A DNA stretch of 64,000 nt from an uncultured Caulobacterales bacterium (GTDB taxonomy: Bacteria; Pseudomonadota; Alphaproteobacteria; Caulobacterales; Maricaulaceae). The notes beneath the pieces were generated by a model. That model was not told the origin of the DNA, did not search any database, and saw nothing but the letters and a program-made list of their open reading frames with translations. The position numbers and the translations under genes were made by a program. Below are positions 56,515-64,000 of the stretch, one piece after another (within the stretch, counting starts at the first letter, position 1; every line of letters begins with the position of its first letter). The stretch spans positions 1 to 64,000 of the forward strand of contig CALKXY010000014.1 in NCBI GenBank assembly GCA_938003545.1, written 5' to 3'.

Positions 56515-56822
56515 GCACGTTGAAACATAAGGGCAAAGGCCCGCAATCCATGACCGCCAATGAATTACGGGATGGATATAGCGTTTGGTTGGATGAAAAC
56601 TTAGATTGGACACGCGATTTCAAGCGCGCGTTGCGGACGGAAGATCAAGACTTGATAGATCGTATGCAACTGAAAGCTGATACGGATGAGAAGGCTAATT
56701 TTGTTGTTGGTGTCTATTTCATCGACATTGAACCTGACACAGGATTACCCGTTCGCTACCGCGAGAAATTTCGCGTGAACGGCCCATCTTACGACACAGC
56801 AGACTTGCTGGAGACCACATAA
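56511..56822 (+). CDS. DUF2849 domain protein in the sulfate-assimilation operon
   Basis: A 103-residue protein of the DUF2849 family, found in alphaproteobacterial cys operons between cysG and cysI. Visible features are the MTANELRDGYSVWLDENLDW segment and the VVGVYFIDIEPDTGLPVRYREKFR hairpin. It overlaps cysG by 4 bp and cysI by 1 bp, so it is tightly coupled to both. The function is unknown; a role in sulfite reductase assembly or electron supply is suggested only by context. Confidence 0.9.
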   Translation: MSTLKHKGKGPQSMTANELRDGYSVWLDENLDWTRDFKRALRTEDQDLIDRMQLKADTDEKANFVVGVYFIDIEPDTGLPVRYREKFRVNGPSYDTADLLETT

Positions 56823-58471
56823 TGTACCGCTATGATGAATTTGATGCGCAGCTTGTCGCTGACCGCACACGCCAATTTCGAGGACAGGTTGAACGCCGTC
56901 TTGCTGGACGTTTAAGCGAAGCTGAGTTCCGCCCACTGCGGTTGATGAACGGCCTGTATCTGCAATTACATGCGTATATGCTTCGCGTTGCTGTTCCTTA
57001 TGGCACTCTGAATAGTGAGCAATTTCGGATGCTTGCGCATTTGGCCGAGAAATATGACCGCGGATATGGCCATATCACGACGCGTCAAAACATGCAGTTT
57101 AATTGGCCGAAATTACCAGATGTCCCTGATATGTTGGATGATCTAGCAAGCGTTCAAATGCATGCGATCCAGACATCAGGTAATTGTATCCGAAATGTCA
57201 CCTGTGACCCATATGCTGGCGCGACGGCGGAAGAAGTCGAAGATCCGCGCCCTATGGCGGAGTTAATTCGTCAGTGGTCAACATTGCATCCTGAATTCAC
57301 ATTCTTGCCGCGCAAATTCAAAATTGCTGTCACGGCAGCAGAGAAGGACCGCGCACTCATCAAAGCACATGATATTGGCATTCAGATTGTCCGAAATACT
57401 AACGGTGATGTTGGATATAAGATATATGTCGGCGGCGGCTTGGGCCGAACGCCAATTATTGGACAAATCTTACGTGAATTCCTGACAAAGGGCGAATTGC
57501 TAGCCTACCTCACGGCTGCGCTGAGGGTTTACAACCGCTATGGTCGTCGTGATAATAAGTACAAAGCTCGTATTAAGATATTGGTGCAAGAGACTGGAAT
57601 TGAAACGTTCCGTGATCAAGTTGAAGCTGAATATGCGTCTATCGACATTAGCGATATTGCCGTATCTGAAGAAGAACGCAATCGCATCACTGCCTATTTT
57701 GCACCGCCAGAATTTGAAACTTTGGACAACGATCCAGCAGAGCTACAGAAAGCTCTGGAGGCAAACAAAGCCTTTTCACTTTGGGCGAAAAACAATGTTG
57801 CGGCTCATAAGGCCTCTGGCTATGCGATCGTCAACATCTCTTTGAAGCCGAAAGACTTGGCACCTGGAGATATTACAGCGGCCCAAATGCGGGCTGTCTC
57901 CGATATAGCGGACAAATATTCATTCGGTGAGTTGCGCTCGACGCATCAACAGAACCTTGTTTTGCCGCATGTTAAACAATCCGATCTTCTAGCTCTCTTC
58001 GCAGAGTTGGAAACAGCAGGTCTAGCGGCAGATAATATCAACCTCATCACTGATATCATTTGCTGCCCAGGTATGGATTTCTGCGCACTTGCCACGGCGA
58101 GGTCCATTCCCATCAGCCAAGCGATTGCTGAACGCTTCGCAGATCCAGAACGCCAGCGCACTATTGGTGAAATGCAGATCAAAATTTCTGGCTGCATCAA
58201 TGCCTGTGGGCATCATCATGTCGGTCACATTGGTATTCTCGGCTTGGAAAAAGCGGGTGTCGAATTCTACCAAGTCAAACTTGGCGGTGATGCCTCCGAA
58301 CATGCCGAAATCGGTAAAGTGACGGGACCAGGCTTCTCGCAGGAAGAACTGGTCGACGGCATTGAGCGTATGGTCGACTTTTATTTGGAAACACGTGAGG
58401 ACAGCGAACGCTTCCTCGACACATATCGACGTATCGGCATCGCGCCGTTCAAAGAGGTGCTTTATGCCTAG
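56822..58471 (+). CDS. cysI: Nitrite/sulfite reductase hemoprotein (assimilatory sulfite reductase)
   Basis: A 549-residue siroheme-[4Fe-4S] enzyme reducing sulfite to sulfide. It carries the TRQNMQFNWP and SGNCIRNVTCDPYAG motifs of the substrate site and, near the C-terminus, the cluster ligands CCPGMDFC and SGCINACGHHHVGHIG. Nitrite reductases share these motifs, but the location between cysG and cysH supports sulfite. The stop overlaps the DUF934-CysH start by 8 bp. No cysJ flavoprotein is present, so electrons probably come from ferredoxin or a separate reductase. Confidence 0.94.
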   Translation: MYRYDEFDAQLVADRTRQFRGQVERRLAGRLSEAEFRPLRLMNGLYLQLHAYMLRVAVPYGTLNSEQFRMLAHLAEKYDRGYGHITTRQNMQFNWPKLPDVPDMLDDLASVQMHAIQTSGNCIRNVTCDPYAGATAEEVEDPRPMAELIRQWSTLHPEFTFLPRKFKIAVTAAEKDRALIKAHDIGIQIVRNTNGDVGYKIYVGGGLGRTPIIGQILREFLTKGELLAYLTAALRVYNRYGRRDNKYKARIKILVQETGIETFRDQVEAEYASIDISDIAVSEEERNRITAYFAPPEFETLDNDPAELQKALEANKAFSLWAKNNVAAHKASGYAIVNISLKPKDLAPGDITAAQMRAVSDIADKYSFGELRSTHQQNLVLPHVKQSDLLALFAELETAGLAADNINLITDIICCPGMDFCALATARSIPISQAIAERFADPERQRTIGEMQIKISGCINACGHHHVGHIGILGLEKAGVEFYQVKLGGDASEHAEIGKVTGPGFSQEELVDGIERMVDFYLETREDSERFLDTYRRIGIAPFKEVLYA

Positions 58472-59660
58472 TCACACACTCATCCAAGATGGCCGTGCGC
58501 GAGATGCTGCACGGTTTGCGGATCCTGCCGCATTGGAGGCTCTAGACAGTAATGAAACCATTGATGTTCTACATATTCCCAATGATGCTGACCTTGACAT
58601 TTTAGCCCCTGCGCTAGGCCGTATTGAAACGATCTTGATTGATTTTCCCGCTTACACAGATGGGCGCGGGTTCTCTCTCGCGCGTCAATTGCGTAAGAAA
58701 TTTGGCTATGAGGGATTGCTGGTTGCAGACGGTCCCTTAATTCCAGATCAGCATGCTTTCGCATTACAGTGCGGGTTTGATGCGGTGCGTCTGGATGATG
58801 CAACGCTATCGCGGCATACGATTGCTGATTGGCATGCTGCGCTTGATGAATTTGATATGACCTATCAGCGGGGATATGCCGTGAAGGCTGGACCTGCGAC
58901 CTCTGTTTTTGATGCGCGAATGACGGCCATAGATGCCCGAAAGGCGGACGACCCTTTTTTCGGTCACTCGGCGGAGTTGACGCTACGTAAGGCGATTGAA
59001 AAATTCGATGGGGACATCGTGCTGGCCACATCTATGGGCGTCGACTCAGCTGTCCTCTTGCACATGGTCTCGCGGATTAATCCGAACTTGCCAGTAATTT
59101 TCCTTGATACTGGAAAGCATTTTAGGGAAACTTTAGCCTATCGTGATGATCTGGTGAGCCGCTTTGGTTTGACAGGTTTCCGAAACATCACACCAAACCA
59201 AGCTCAAGTTCTGTCAGAAGATCCTGACGGAACGCTCAATCAATCCGAACCAGACTCCTGTTGTGACCTGCGCAAGGTGCGTCCGCTTGATGGTGTCATC
59301 AATGGGTTTGCTGCGCGAATTACGGGCCGCAAACGGTATCAAACACCGGAACGGGCAAATATGTCTATTTTGGAAGAGGCCGCCGCAACGGGCAGTCCGC
59401 AATCCAAAGTTAATCCGCTCGCTTATTGGACGGCAAAAGACGTCACTGCATATATGCGCCAACACGACCTTCCGCCACATCCACTTCTCGCAATTGGGTA
59501 TCTCTCAATCGGGTGTCAGCCCTGCACAACACGCGTTGCAGCAGGTGAAGATCCGCGCGCAGGTCGTTGGAGAAACAGTGATAAAACCGAATGTGGTATT
59601 CACATGGTTGACGGTAAATGGGTGTCTATTGAGACGAAAGCGACGTTTGAAGCGTTTTAA
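58464..59660 (+). CDS. cysH: DUF934 - phosphoadenylyl/adenylyl-sulfate reductase fusion
   Basis: A 398-residue fusion. Residues 1-138 are a DUF934 domain (TILIDFPAYTDGRGFSLARQLR, then GYEGLLVADGPLIPDQ), normally a separate gene beside cysI or cysH. Residues about 150-395 are CysH: the PP-loop ATSMGVDSAVLL at 188-199, paired cysteines C266-C267 and C351/C354, and the catalytic Cys377 in KTECGIH. The CC plus CxxC set indicates an iron-sulfur APS reductase type, not the cluster-free PAPS reductase of E. coli. ATG at 58464, with AGAGG upstream, overlaps the cysI stop by 8 bp; an earlier start at 58362 inside cysI is rejected. Confidence 0.93.
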   Translation: MPSHTLIQDGRARDAARFADPAALEALDSNETIDVLHIPNDADLDILAPALGRIETILIDFPAYTDGRGFSLARQLRKKFGYEGLLVADGPLIPDQHAFALQCGFDAVRLDDATLSRHTIADWHAALDEFDMTYQRGYAVKAGPATSVFDARMTAIDARKADDPFFGHSAELTLRKAIEKFDGDIVLATSMGVDSAVLLHMVSRINPNLPVIFLDTGKHFRETLAYRDDLVSRFGLTGFRNITPNQAQVLSEDPDGTLNQSEPDSCCDLRKVRPLDGVINGFAARITGRKRYQTPERANMSILEEAAATGSPQSKVNPLAYWTAKDVTAYMRQHDLPPHPLLAIGYLSIGCQPCTTRVAAGEDPRAGRWRNSDKTECGIHMVDGKWVSIETKATFEAF

Positions 59661-59713: not shown

Positions 59714-60304
59714 TTAATGACGACTCTGAAGCTCTTTAATCACACGCTCAAACTTCATATCTTTGGCCGCCAATAAAACGAGTGTGTGGTAGATCAAATC
59801 TGCCGCCTCGCTCACTAATTTATCATCGGTTTCAGCAACAGCGGCGAGGGCGGTTTCTACGCCTTCTTCGCCGACTTTCTGCGCGGCACGGCGAAGCGGT
59901 CCTTGCAAGAGTTGCGCGGTATATGAGCTTTCTGGATCGGCAGTCTTACGGCCTTCGATAAGTTGTTCCAAATATGATAAGAAGCCGACGCCGTCCGCGC
60001 CTTCATCGCCAAAGCATGAAACTGTACCCTCATGGCAGGTTGGCCCAGTCGGACGGGCTTTGACGAGGAGTGTGTCATTGTCACAATCAATCGTCATGTC
60101 TACAAGCGCGAGCGTATTGCCGCTCGTCTCGCCCTTGGTCCAAAGCATTTGACGAGAGCGGCTATAGAATGTGACGAGGCGTGTCTCATTGGTTTTTGCA
60201 ACAGCGTCAGCGTTCATGTAACCCAGCATCAAAACCTGCAACGTATCTGCATCTTGGATAATAGCAGGGACAAGGCCTCCGCTTTTTTCAAAATCTATTT
60301 TCAC
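59714..60304 (-). CDS. hisIE: Bifunctional phosphoribosyl-AMP cyclohydrolase / phosphoribosyl-ATP pyrophosphatase
   Basis: A 196-residue fusion catalysing steps 2 and 3 of histidine synthesis. The N-terminal HisI domain (about 1-105) has the zinc-site motif CDNDTLL and GPTCHEG, and the C-terminal HisE domain (about 108-196) has [17 protein letters not shown] HisIE fusion is usual in gammaproteobacteria and Bacteroidetes, while alphaproteobacteria normally carry separate hisI and hisE genes. It is the last gene of the operon, overlaps hisF by 4 bp, and converges with cysH across a 53-bp gap. Confidence 0.95.
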
Positions 60305-61068
60305 GATCTGACCTCTATACCTGCACGTCGTAAATCTGATTTCAAATCAGGGATGGCAATCACTGATTTGTGAAAAACAGAAGCGGCGAGGGCCCCGTCT
60401 ACATTGGCTTGTTTGAATACATCTTCAAAATGTTCAGTTGCGCCGGCACCGCCAGACGCAATTAAGGGGACGCTGCATATAGCGCGAACAGCTTTAAGCT
60501 GCTCAAGGTCATATCCTTTACGTACGCCGTCTCTGTTCATACAGTTTAGAACGATTTCCCCTGCACCGCGTTTAATCACATCTTGGACCCAATCGAGTGT
60601 CAGTCGGCCTGTCTCTCGTGTCTTGTCGGGATCGCCTGTGTGGGATTTAACGCGGTAAGTTTCACCATCGGCAAATGTATCAATTCCGACAACAATACAT
60701 TGAACGCCATATGCTTCGCTGAGTTCATTCACGAGGTCGGGCCGCATGAGAGCGGGAGAGTTGACGCTGATTTTATCTGCACCCGCCGCCAAGCGCGCGC
60801 CTGCGGCTTCGACGGTTTTTATTCCACCTGCGACGCAAAATGGGATATCCAAGGCGCGGCTAACCTTCCCGACCCAATCGGGGCTGACCGTACGGTCATC
60901 GACCGAAGCAGTGATGTCGTAAAAAACGAGTTCATCTGCACCTTCATCGCGATAACGCAGTGCGAGATCAATGATGTCGCCGACGTCTTCGTGATTACGA
61001 AACTGCACACCTTTGACAACACGCCCATCACGTACATCCAAACATGGGATAATTCGGCGGGTTAGCAT
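60301..61068 (-). CDS. hisF: Imidazole glycerol phosphate synthase cyclase subunit
   Basis: A 255-residue TIM-barrel lyase that works with HisH to form imidazole glycerol phosphate and AICAR. Catalytic aspartates are D11 (PCLDVRDG) and the one in VVGIDTF. The wording of several conserved segments, such as [32 protein letters not shown] and [10 protein letters not shown], resembles gammaproteobacterial HisF as I recall it much more than typical alphaproteobacterial HisF. It overlaps hisA by 7 bp and hisIE by 4 bp. Confidence 0.96.
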
Positions 61069-61787
61069 GTGATGGCTTCGGGCAGGGTGAAAGCACCTTC
61101 ATAAAGGGCTTTGCCAATGATAATACCGTAGGGGGCAATCGCTTTGAGGTCGCGGACGTGGTCCAATGTTCCGACCCCGCCTGAACTGATTAAGTCCAGA
61201 GTCGGAAATTCGGTTTGAATGCGTTTGTAGAGATCAATATTGCCGCCCGTTTGCATACCGTCTCGGCCAATGTCCGTTACCAAAATTGTTTTTAAGCCAG
61301 AGCCAAGAAAGTCTCCTAGCACATCCCAGAGTGTTTTCTTAGAGGCCTCTGTCCAGCCTTTTGTCGCAGGACGAAATTCACCATCTTCGCCTTGGTTCAC
61401 ATCGAGAGCGAGGCAAATCGCATCCGCTCCAACCTCGCGGAGCCAATGTTTGACCATCTGTGGATTTGTAACCGCAAGGGATCCAATCACAACGCGCTCC
61501 ACACCGCCATCTAGCAACCGTTTTATTTGAGAGAGGTCACGTAAGCCCCCACCTGTTTGTACTTTAATGTCTGCGGAATTTGCAATTTTCAGGATAAGAT
61601 CAGATTGTTCCGCATGCCCATTTTTTGCACCGTCCAAATCAACGATATGCATCCATTCCGCACCTGCGGCGGCATAGCCTTGCGCGACCTCAACTGGATC
61701 GGCTGCATAGTTAGTGCGGGCGTTAAAATTACCTTTTAGAAGGCGAACACATCCGCCATCCATGAGATCCATTGCCGGGAAAATCAT
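61062..61787 (-). CDS. hisA: Phosphoribosylformimino-5-aminoimidazole carboxamide ribotide isomerase
   Basis: A 241-residue TIM-barrel isomerase, step 4 of histidine synthesis. Catalytic D7 lies in [10 protein letters not shown] and the second aspartate in LVTDIGRDG; phosphate loops GGGLR and ISSGGVGT are present. The N-terminus reads [10 protein letters not shown] instead of the common IIPAIDL. Sizes and motifs are normal otherwise. It overlaps hisH by 4 bp upstream and hisF by 7 bp downstream. Confidence 0.95.
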
Positions 61788-62383
61788 AGCTTTATGTCCA
61801 GAAAATTCTTGAGGATTTGGGCGCCGGTTTTAGAACTCCGCTCGGGGTGAAATTGACAACCCCAAACATTGTCTTTGCGCGTCATGGCAGTGAAGGGCGT
61901 TCCGTACTCGGCTTGAGCTAATGTGTTTTCGGAAACATCAGCTGCGAAAGAATGAACGAAATAAGCGTAATCACCTGCCGTAACACCCTTTAACAGAGGG
62001 TCTTTTTTTAGGGGGGTAATTTTATTCCAACCCATATGAGGGGAAGGCAAATTTCCTGTTTCCAAAGCGCGTATAGCGCCAGGGACGAGGCCTAAACCTT
62101 CAACAGTATCGCCGCCTTCTTCTAGTGTTTCGTAGAGGAGTTGCATGCCTAGACATATTCCGATCACGGGTTGATCCAAGGTTTTCAAAACAGGCTTCAG
62201 ATTTTTGGCATTTATGCTTCGCATGGCAAAGGGCGCAGAGCCTACGCCGGGCAAGACGACACGATTGGCCGTCTTAATGACGTTTGCATCATCACTAATG
62301 ATCGGCGTGACACCTAGGCGTTCAAAGGCGTATTGAACTGACGCCAAATTTGCGCAGCCCGTATCAACGATGACAAGGCTCAC
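61784..62383 (-). CDS. hisH: Imidazole glycerol phosphate synthase glutamine amidotransferase subunit
   Basis: A 199-residue class I glutaminase that supplies ammonia to HisF. The catalytic triad is C77 (GICLGMQLLYE), H179 and E181 (FHPERSSKTG). The N-terminal VIVDTGCANLASVQYAFERLG segment and the PHMGWN motif are typical. It overlaps hisA and the hisC-hisB gene by 4 bp each, so the operon is translationally coupled throughout. Confidence 0.96.
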   Translation of the reverse strand: MSLVIVDTGCANLASVQYAFERLGVTPIISDDANVIKTANRVVLPGVGSAPFAMRSINAKNLKPVLKTLDQPVIGICLGMQLLYETLEEGGDTVEGLGLVPGAIRALETGNLPSPHMGWNKITPLKKDPLLKGVTAGDYAYFVHSFAADVSENTLAQAEYGTPFTAMTRKDNVWGCQFHPERSSKTGAQILKNFLDIKL

Positions 62384-64000
62384 AACGTACCTTTAGTAGA
62401 TGGAATTTCACTGCCTGACACAGCAAAGGCTGGGCGTAATGCGCGGCCAACGCCTTTGAAACAGGCTTCAATCATGTGGTGCGAATTATCGCCCTTAACG
62501 TCGACATGGATTGCCGCACCGAGCGTTTGCGCGAGGCTTTCGAAAAAGTGCGGGCACATCTCGACAGGGAAGTCTCCAACGTGATCTGTGGGGAAGTCTC
62601 CGTTGAAAACAGCTGCAGGGCGACCAGACAGGTCAATTGCGACCTGTGCCTGTGTTTCGTCCATTGGAATGACATAGCCATACCGACCGATACCTGCTTT
62701 ATTTCCGAGGGCTTGCTTCAAGGCTTCGCCAAACGCCAAGGCTGTATCTTCAACTGTGTGATGGGCATCGATGTGTAAATCGCCTTCGCAGGCCATAGTT
62801 AGGCCGAATCCGCCATGTTTGGAAATTTGTTCCAACATGTGATCGTAAAACCCAATGCCCGTTTCGATTTTAGTTTGCGAGGCATCGTCCAAATTCACGC
62901 GCACAGAAATGTCTGTTTCATTCGTCTTACGGAACGTTTCGCCAATGCGGTCAATGCGTTTGTCTGTATCAACAACGCCAAAGGCCTGTAGCGCAATTGT
63001 GTTTTCTTCTGGTGAGCCAATAGATACTCTCATGCGACCTGTGGTGGAGCGGTAGTCGCGTATTTTGACATTGAACTGACGGAGTTGAGACAGAAGTGCA
63101 GCTTCGTCTTTGACCTCAAGCAGGAGGAAGTTTGCGTCAGACGGATAAACGGTTTCAACATATTTGGATTGCGAAAGCCCTTCTGCCAATCGCGCGCGCT
63201 CAGTTAATGTTTCCGCTAAACGTTGCGCATGGACAGACATAGCAGAGGGAGCGAGCGCATTCAGGATAGTCGTCTCAACAGGACGCGCAATCGGGTAGGG
63301 CGGAAGGACTTTAAGCAGTAGATTAATCACGCGGGCGTCGGCCAATAAAGCGCCGCCCCTTACGCCTGCAAGGGCATAGGCTTTCGACAACGTGCGTAAG
63401 ACAACAAGGTTTTGCACATGCCCGATTTGATCAACAAGGCTCTCTTGTTTGGCAAATTCTATATAGGCCTCATCTACAACAATCAGCGTTTCGGGGAGTT
63501 CCGCGCAGACCTGCAATATTGCATCACGTGTCAGGCTGTTTCCCGTTGGATTATTTGGCGAGCAAAGAAAGATCATCTTCACGGATTGATTCCTGCCCGC
63601 TGCAATCACACCAGGAATATCCCATTCATATGACGCGCTGAGTGGAACTTCGACAATGCCTGCACCCTGAATATCTGCGCAAGTCTTGTAATATCCAAAT
63701 GTTGGTGGACAGGTCAGAATGCTGTCCTGTCCGGCTTCGCAAAATGCACGCAACAGACATTCGATGCCTTCATCCGCACCGCGGCCAACCATAAGTTGGT
63801 CAACTTCAACGCCATATAATCCAGCTAAACGATTGACGAGTTTTATAGGCTGTTGTGATGGATAACGATTGAATCCTTCTGCACCAATAACGGGCGGCGG
63901 TGCATATGGGTTCTCATTTGCATCCAGATGCAGCGCATCTGTCGCGCCGCCGCGCGCAGAATATATCGACATCGCGACCACAGATTTACGGGCTATACTA
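62380..64000 (-). CDS. HisC-HisB fusion: histidinol-phosphate aminotransferase + imidazoleglycerol-phosphate dehydratase, 5' end beyond window
   Basis: One frame encodes HisC then HisB. Counting from the GTG at 63981, residues 1-340 are HisC (DANENPYAPPP, SPNNPTG, VVDEAYIEF, PLP lysine K200 in TLSKAYAL) and about 346-533 are HisB dehydratase (TGIGFYDHMLEQ, metal-site HIDAHHTVED at 403-412, DNSHHMIEA). The link (GVVDTDKRIDRIGE) has no stop, Met or GTG, so the join is real. Upstream the frame stays open to the edge as SIARKSVVA, matching the usual HisC N-terminus (LARENVRNL in E. coli), so the true start probably lies past 64000. HisC and HisB are normally separate; E. coli HisB is fused to a phosphatase instead. 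Confidence 0.92.
   Translation of the reverse strand, partial: SIARKSVVAMSIYSARGGATDALHLDANENPYAPPPVIGAEGFNRYPSQQPIKLVNRLAGLYGVEVDQLMVGRGADEGIECLLRAFCEAGQDSILTCPPTFGYYKTCADIQGAGIVEVPLSASYEWDIPGVIAAGRNQSVKMIFLCSPNNPTGNSLTRDAILQVCAELPETLIVVDEAYIEFAKQESLVDQIGHVQNLVVLRTLSKAYALAGVRGGALLADARVINLLLKVLPPYPIARPVETTILNALAPSAMSVHAQRLAETLTERARLAEGLSQSKYVETVYPSDANFLLLEVKDEAALLSQLRQFNVKIRDYRSTTGRMRVSIGSPEENTIALQAFGVVDTDKRIDRIGETFRKTNETDISVRVNLDDASQTKIETGIGFYDHMLEQISKHGGFGLTMACEGDLHIDAHHTVEDTALAFGEALKQALGNKAGIGRYGYVIPMDETQAQVAIDLSGRPAAVFNGDFPTDHVGDFPVEMCPHFFESLAQTLGAAIHVDVKGDNSHHMIEACFKGVGRALRPAFAVSGSEIPSTKGTL

Follow-up and report, generated by a model that had tools for sequence, protein, structure and literature searches.

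A fused hisC-hisB gene in a Caulobacterales histidine operon and the differing fates of its aminotransferase half among relatives

The hisCB gene and its operon

The window, which is the whole stretch of 64,000 nucleotides analyzed here, ends inside a gene on the minus strand (hisCB) that encodes histidinol-phosphate aminotransferase (HisC) and imidazole-glycerol phosphate dehydratase (IGPD, HisB) as one polypeptide. The frame is open from the window end at 64000 down to a stop codon at 62380 and contains zero internal stops, which confirms the uninterrupted HisC-to-HisB frame described in an earlier sequence-only reading. A rough estimate from the base composition gives a chance of 7e-12 for 539 open codons. 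The reading had set the limits of the gene at 62380 and 64000. The stop codon was correctly placed, but the 5′ end is corrected here: the start on the contig (locus L090) is an ATG at base 64017, 17 nt beyond the window. The window edge thus cuts the gene, and the window holds its 3′ 1621 nt, corresponding to 539 residues of the full product of 545 amino acids identified by open reading frame and domain searches.

The HisC domain is formed by residues 4–340 of the 539 (62980–63990, minus strand) and belongs to the HisC family, with a TIGR01141 score of 309.4 bits over the curated cut-off of 276.55. The HisB domain, delimited by Pfam and NCBIfam matches, spans residues 348–539 (62383–62958, minus strand), with the PF00475 core at 62437–62862. 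In the Pfam search, Aminotran_1_2 at residues 22–340 is followed by IGPD (PF00475) at residues 380–521, the latter with 203.7 bits against a cut-off of 27, and the NCBIfam HisB models match from about residue 348. The domain limits leave a short linker at about residues 341–350 (62950–62979, minus strand), which has a pLDDT of about 75 in the structure model described below. The linker lacks a start codon, as the earlier reading had stated. The first one after it lies about 17 residues into HisB, which is somewhat sooner than the wording of that reading implied. Within residues 280–400, the only in-frame start codons are ATG323, which is inside HisC, and GTG366, GTG368, TTG370, ATG388, and TTG389. 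Both domains score above their cut-offs, and the proposed fusion of consecutive pathway steps is borne out, with HisB responsible for step 6 and HisC for step 7. The locus contains one gene with a complete HisC and a complete HisB.

The HisC positions N150, D176, Y179, K206, R214, and R324 are all in place in the window protein. K206 (539-residue numbering; codon 63382–63384, minus strand) is located in the motif TLSKAYALAG and is invariant in an alignment of 46 fusions (A1). We take it to be the PLP-binding lysine and the other positions to have their usual active-site roles. Both HHxxE motifs of HisB, presumably the metal motifs of IGPD, are present as H413, H414, E417 and H507, H508, E511. 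The HisNB model NF003937 reaches 279.6 bits against its cut-off of 443, with only profile positions 164–355 aligned, and Pfam finds no phosphatase domain in the window protein. HisNB of E. coli and Salmonella likewise has a pathway enzyme at the N-terminus of IGP dehydratase and is encoded in a compact his operon. However, its partner is a HAD phosphatase catalyzing step 8, which is not consecutive with step 6, whereas the partner here is the PLP-dependent transaminase of step 7.

The AlphaFold model of the fusion, calculated from 46 aligned fusions, has a pLDDT of 89.6 and a pTM of 0.86. Sequence matches connect both halves to solved HisC and IGPD structures. The 50 listed PDB matches of the model are HisC or related PLP enzymes with no IGPD among them, and the fold of the HisB half therefore rests on the sequence matches to solved IGPDs. 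Some of the solved IGPD relatives have 24 chains (7oj5, 6ezm), and HisC is a dimer. It is possible, as a conjecture from these two oligomeric states, that the fusion forms a 24-mer bearing 12 HisC dimers.

The operon has the order hisG-hisD-hisCB-hisH-hisA-hisF-hisIE with tight overlaps between the genes. hisG and hisD were identified by Pfam upstream of hisCB on the contig, and the ATG of hisCB overlaps the hisD stop codon by 4 nt. The remaining genes are on the minus strand of the window: hisH, encoding the glutamine amidotransferase of IGP synthase (61784–62383, GTG start, identified from its frame and domains), hisA (61062–61787, PF00977), hisF (60301–61068, PF00977), and hisIE (59714–60304, PRA-CH and PRA-PH domains), which is itself a known his fusion. 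The hisH start and the hisCB stop share 4 nt, and the overlap is 4 nt between hisH and hisA, 7 nt between hisA and hisF, and 4 nt between hisF and hisIE. hisA and hisF were told apart by N-terminal motifs that we assume to distinguish them. A second enzyme fusion lies near the operon on the plus strand, where DUF934 and a PAPS reductase (CysH) domain share one open reading frame (58362–59660), adjoined by a sulfite/nitrite reductase gene at 56822–58471.

Distribution of the fusion and decay of its HisC half

The sequence-only reading held the fusion to be uncommon and called for a search of the taxa that carry it. In a scan of genome contigs for relatives, the best 80 of 279 related loci were kept, and 57 of these 80 encode both domains in a single frame, including one with a dead HisC (L056) and four that are cut by contig ends yet span the junction. 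Among the remaining 23 loci, 22 have two frames and one is cut by a contig end before HisB. Records with a single frame include Litorimonas, Robiginitomaculum, Algimonas, Micavibrio, and Sphingomonas-type ones; Bacteroidales or Bacteroidetes appears in the title of seven others and Acidobacteriota in that of one. In Sphingomonas deserti GL-C-18, one open reading frame of 996 amino acids (L043, 4654–7644) encodes HisD, HisC, and HisB. Matches of about 2.1 kb in Woeseiaceae and their kin (L065–L081) were considered as HisC-HisN-HisB triple fusions, and this was ruled out by their two frames.

In a survey of the class with the fusion as the query, 9 of 385 genomes, the source genome included, have a full-length match among the matches listed, and in one additional genome (G088) the fusion is divided between two contigs. 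The survey of the phylum yielded matches at E ≤ 1e-80, a threshold that would miss divergent fusions, in 8 of 398 genomes; seven are from the source order, and the eighth (G1105) contains internal stops. The full-length fusion is present in 64 of the 137 genomes of the source family, in one of them (G488) only to residue 505. The other 73 family genomes comprise 7 with pieces of the fusion, mostly at contig ends, 52 with mainly a HisB match, and 14 without a HisB match. The description as uncommon is therefore valid for the class but not for the source family, in which the fusion is common.

In the 52 family genomes with mainly a HisB match, the open frame is much longer than the match. All were examined: 20 have HisD joined to HisB without HisC, and in 32 HisB carries an N-terminal part, with a length of about 190–230 amino acids in the family genomes measured. 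One more such N-terminal part was found in a genome from a different family (G086). The HisD-HisB proteins occur in 19 of 19 genomes of the genus g288, one of which runs across the junction although it is truncated at a contig end, and in one genome of g284 (G414); two were verified by Pfam. The g284 case (L239) has a long branch, and the six other fetched members of its genus have the N-terminal part instead. It is perhaps the product of a second event.

The N-terminal parts are, as judged from profile comparisons, relics of HisC. They have no phmmer match to the HisC of the window, and this, together with the low identity described below, would fit a domain unrelated to HisC. However, hhalign aligned a profile of 21 remnants to one built from 85 HisC sequences, of which 21 are free and 64 come from fused genes, complete or cut by contig ends, with a probability of 87.5 and a score of 48.4. 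The alignment covers about 100 columns at 11% identity. The probabilities of the controls are 0.8 for HisD and 0.3 for HisB, and the best of 40 column shuffles scores 20.7. Searched against 8819 open reading frames, a hidden Markov model of the remnants finds 27 frames beyond the loci used to train it at E ≤ 10, 13 of which reach E ≤ 1e-3, and every one is a HisC-HisB frame. The match in each of the 27 is split into two collinear segments, one near the HisC start and one in the C-terminal part, and the PLP-binding middle is absent. Only 13 of 74 fused frames are matched at E ≤ 1e-3, which indicates that the remnant is far diverged. The remnants also occupy the same position in the operon, and shortened lysine-less intermediates exist, which makes an unrelated origin of this part improbable.

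The start codons of the remnants are positioned −8 to +2 nt from the hisD stop in 21 of 21 cases. The dN/dS ratios of the remnants are 0.20–0.51, compared with 0.04–0.12 for HisB in the same ten pairs, which are not all independent; active HisC has ratios of 0.055–0.127 in six other pairs. The start positions and the ratios together suggest that the remnants are translated and weakly constrained.

In the source order outside the source family, the HisC half of the fusion is mostly retained without its lysine. In a survey of the source order, 107 of 398 genomes match the fusion at E ≤ 1e-80, 66 of them beyond the source family, and 62 of these 66 were examined (all except G619, G659, G717, and G757; G613 and G603 also by Pfam). 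Of these 62 fused genes, four keep the presumed PLP lysine and 58 lack it. Among the 60 fetched loci it is lost in 56; Leu takes its place in 41, and the other 15 have Tyr, Phe, Met, Ala, Ile, Ser, Gln, or a gap. All eight checked IGPD positions are retained in each of the 60. The two other genomes of the 62 (G063 and G278) have Leu at this position, as does L056, a record titled only Alphaproteobacteria. An AlphaFold model of the L056 protein calculated without an alignment has a pLDDT of 39.5 and was not used as evidence. The fused HisC of G603 (L268) is nearly full-length, reaching 298 bits against the HisC profile; Ser replaces its lysine, and it perhaps represents a recent inactivation.

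In the genus g2, which we guess to be Brevundimonas, 41 of 42 matching genomes are lysine-less, and G613 alone keeps the lysine. The former lysine motif is the best-conserved 16-residue window of the pseudo-domain in 39 g2 proteins, ranking 1 of 267 with a mean of 0.98; the same window ranks 8 of 339 in a wider set of 31 active fused HisC. The conservation of a dead motif among these 39 genus mates hints at a non-catalytic role. In the 11 of the 39 proteins that were caught by a start motif, the median dN/dS is 0.25 for the pseudo-domain and 0.13 for HisB. The pseudo-HisC pair L111/L112 has a dN/dS of about 0.49.

HisC copy number and phylogeny

The source assembly contains only one IGPD, and the fused HisC is the sole one of five TIGR01141 matches above the cut-off. 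The assembly is 75.9% complete, consists of 52 contigs, and also lacks rpoB. Because of this incompleteness, a second HisC could be missing from the data. However, the same pattern of a sole fused HisC is found in G429, which is 100% complete, and in G443 and G444. The TIGR01141 search covered 27 genomes with an intact fusion, defined here by retention of the lysine in the fused HisC. Five fusions that are intact in this sense differ at the N150 position, with Ser or Ala in L108, L116, L117, and L119 and Ser in L266. The fused HisC alone is above the cut-off in 20 of the 27, and a second HisC is above it in seven (G510, G388, G496, G308, G526, G551, and G613). Among 80 genomes whose fusion is decayed, 78 contain a free HisC that passes the cut-off, and in the other two the free HisC falls just short of the value of 276.55, with 272.1 bits in G086 and 275.6 in G599.

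A tree of HisC with 89 rows unites the free alphaproteobacterial sequences in a single clade (100/100), and all 17 free copies placed from 16 genomes with a decayed fusion belong to it. The free HisC of these 16 genomes is therefore native and did not arise by duplication of the fused half. The fused HisC sequences form another clade (99/90) together with gammaproteobacterial and Bacteroidales HisC and an odd free copy from G496. The tree contains a chosen set of the fused HisC sequences and was calculated without ten gammaproteobacterial near-copies and the short L076 and L081. G496, which also has a fusion, contains a second, very divergent his cluster (L109, contig C10) with separate hisD, hisC, and hisB genes and long tree branches. 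In eight genomes of f175 (G586, G690, G745, G602, G642, G646, G674, and G658), three of f176 (G603, G599, and G768), and L056, all with lysine-less fusions, the contig that bears the fused gene also has a free HisC about 2.7 kb further downstream. The replacement may therefore sit in or beside the his operon.

The HisB tree was calculated without 21 near-copies (where present), L048, window duplicates, and HisB sequences shorter than 150 amino acids; window duplicates were also omitted from the comparison of catalytic residues. HisB from fused, pseudo-HisC, remnant, and HisD-HisB proteins groups with gammaproteobacterial and Bacteroidales HisB (94/90), and 20 ordinary alphaproteobacterial HisB lie apart from this group. 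Unfused gammaproteobacterial genes fall among the fused ones with weak support. The unfused genes of Woeseiaceae and other Gammaproteobacteria, a free hisC with an adjacent gene for a HisNB-type HisB, have the same gene order as the fusion, and in the trees they are among the unfused sequences most closely related to each half. However, they are two overlapping or adjacent frames (L065–L081), whereas the fusion is one. The Bacteroidales fusions may have a separate origin.

An rpoB tree of 27 rows, from which G000 and G419 (no rpoB match) and G411 (broken rpoB) are absent, unites ten remnant genomes and three HisD-HisB genomes (100/100), and within this clade the HisD-HisB genomes adjoin a remnant genome of g284 (93/90). 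G387, the eleventh remnant genome, is the sister of G388, which has an intact fusion (100/100). The HisB of G388 groups with Sphingomonas-type fusions (99/87) despite this sisterhood, indicating that transfers blur the history. A weakly resolved tree of active and dead fusions, calculated without eleven unfused rows, with the 39 new g2 rows reduced to 15 and with L111 and L112 retained, requires six changes between the active and the dead state by parsimony, a figure that is not claimed as the number of lysine losses. The rpoB gene of G411 is split into eight pieces in several frames (contig C1, about 1256051–1260049) in a genome rated 99% complete, probably because of sequencing errors.

Origin and fates of the fusion

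The observations are best accounted for if HisC-HisB is a bifunctional enzyme in the source organism, and redundancy with a native free HisC was settled in the opposite manner in other lineages; we assign this joint reading a probability of about 0.85. It draws on the fusion itself, the intact residues in the window protein, the loss of the lysine or the domain elsewhere, the HisC copy numbers, and the two HisC clades, all of which were observed in sequence data. The window protein probably catalyzes both steps, because its residues are intact and it contains the sole copies of HisC and HisB. The HisB half would dehydrate imidazole-glycerol phosphate to imidazole-acetol phosphate, and the HisC half would transaminate the latter to histidinol phosphate. 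The fusion would have arisen in a compact hisGDCBHAF(IE) operon, of a type also found in Gammaproteobacteria, in which hisC directly precedes hisB. We infer that this operon was gained by transfer or reflects very old vertical descent. Genomes with the fusion would also have owned the native free HisC and thus had two transaminases, a redundancy that appears to have been resolved both ways. The source organism, like the majority of checked relatives whose fusion is intact, would have lost the native HisC and would rely on the fused one. Other lineages of the order would have kept the native HisC, and their fused half would have lost its PLP lysine, shrunk to a remnant, or vanished with HisD becoming joined to HisB.

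An artefact of assembly or annotation that joined separate genes is conceivable in a genome fragmented into 52 contigs, but the single frame in the relatives described above, which include cultured Litorimonas, Robiginitomaculum, and Algimonas, refutes it almost completely. The fusion may have arisen neutrally by the loss of a stop codon between overlapping operon genes and been kept since both halves work at a 1:1 ratio, with the dead halves as passengers. They would persist because translation of HisB starts at the hisD-coupled ATG and re-initiation is hard. The position of the remnant starts at the hisD stop, the relaxed selection on the remnants and on the L111/L112 pair, and the dropping of the HisC domain throughout g288 speak for this explanation, which we regard as plausible at somewhat less than even odds. 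The best-conserved window of the g2 pseudo-domains, at the former lysine, is not expected of a pure passenger. It is tentatively proposed that pseudo-HisC-HisB is instead a retained pseudoenzyme, in which the dead domain would serve the HisB assembly in a structural or regulatory capacity, both in one genus rich in species and in several lineages related to it. It might, for example, provide an interface ordering the HisB 24-mer, a sensor of a pathway ligand, or a dock for the free HisC.

Known fusions of histidine enzymes include HisIE, HisHF/HIS7, HIS4 (HisI-HisE-HisD), and the seven-activity gene of Acanthamoeba (PMC1963479, PMC8305728, PMC6029752), which, as described in the available text of these papers, are without HisC. 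The his genes stated to have undergone fusion, at least seven in the accessible sections, are hisD, hisB, hisN, hisI, hisE, hisF, and hisH (PMC1963479, PMC10138114), and the word hisC is absent from the main text of both papers. The accessible portions of PMC8305728, PMC3896937, PMC6029752, PMC11237513, and PMC4921024 contain no HisC fusion. Among the papers listed by the literature searches, no reports of HisC-HisB, HisD-HisC-HisB, or HisD-HisB fusions were found in titles, beginnings of abstracts, and term counts, with supplements, subscription papers, and database annotations outside the scope of the search. Mentions of "hisC-hisB" in the Corynebacterium literature and of "hisDCB" or "hisDB" elsewhere were taken for gene or operon names.

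Gene fusion has a model case in histidine biosynthesis. The fused gene described here includes hisC, which is omitted from the lists of two reviews in the text available. Automatic annotation could mistake the N-terminal HisC-like part of many HisB proteins in the order for a functional transaminase. The surveys provide a graded natural experiment on a redundant fused enzyme half, which was kept, killed at its lysine, trimmed, or removed. It becomes testable whether the fusion serves channelling and stoichiometry, or whether the domain was retained for structure after its chemistry was lost. If the dead domain is indeed a retained pseudoenzyme, then active fusion, pseudoenzyme, remnant, and loss would form successive stages of a natural series.
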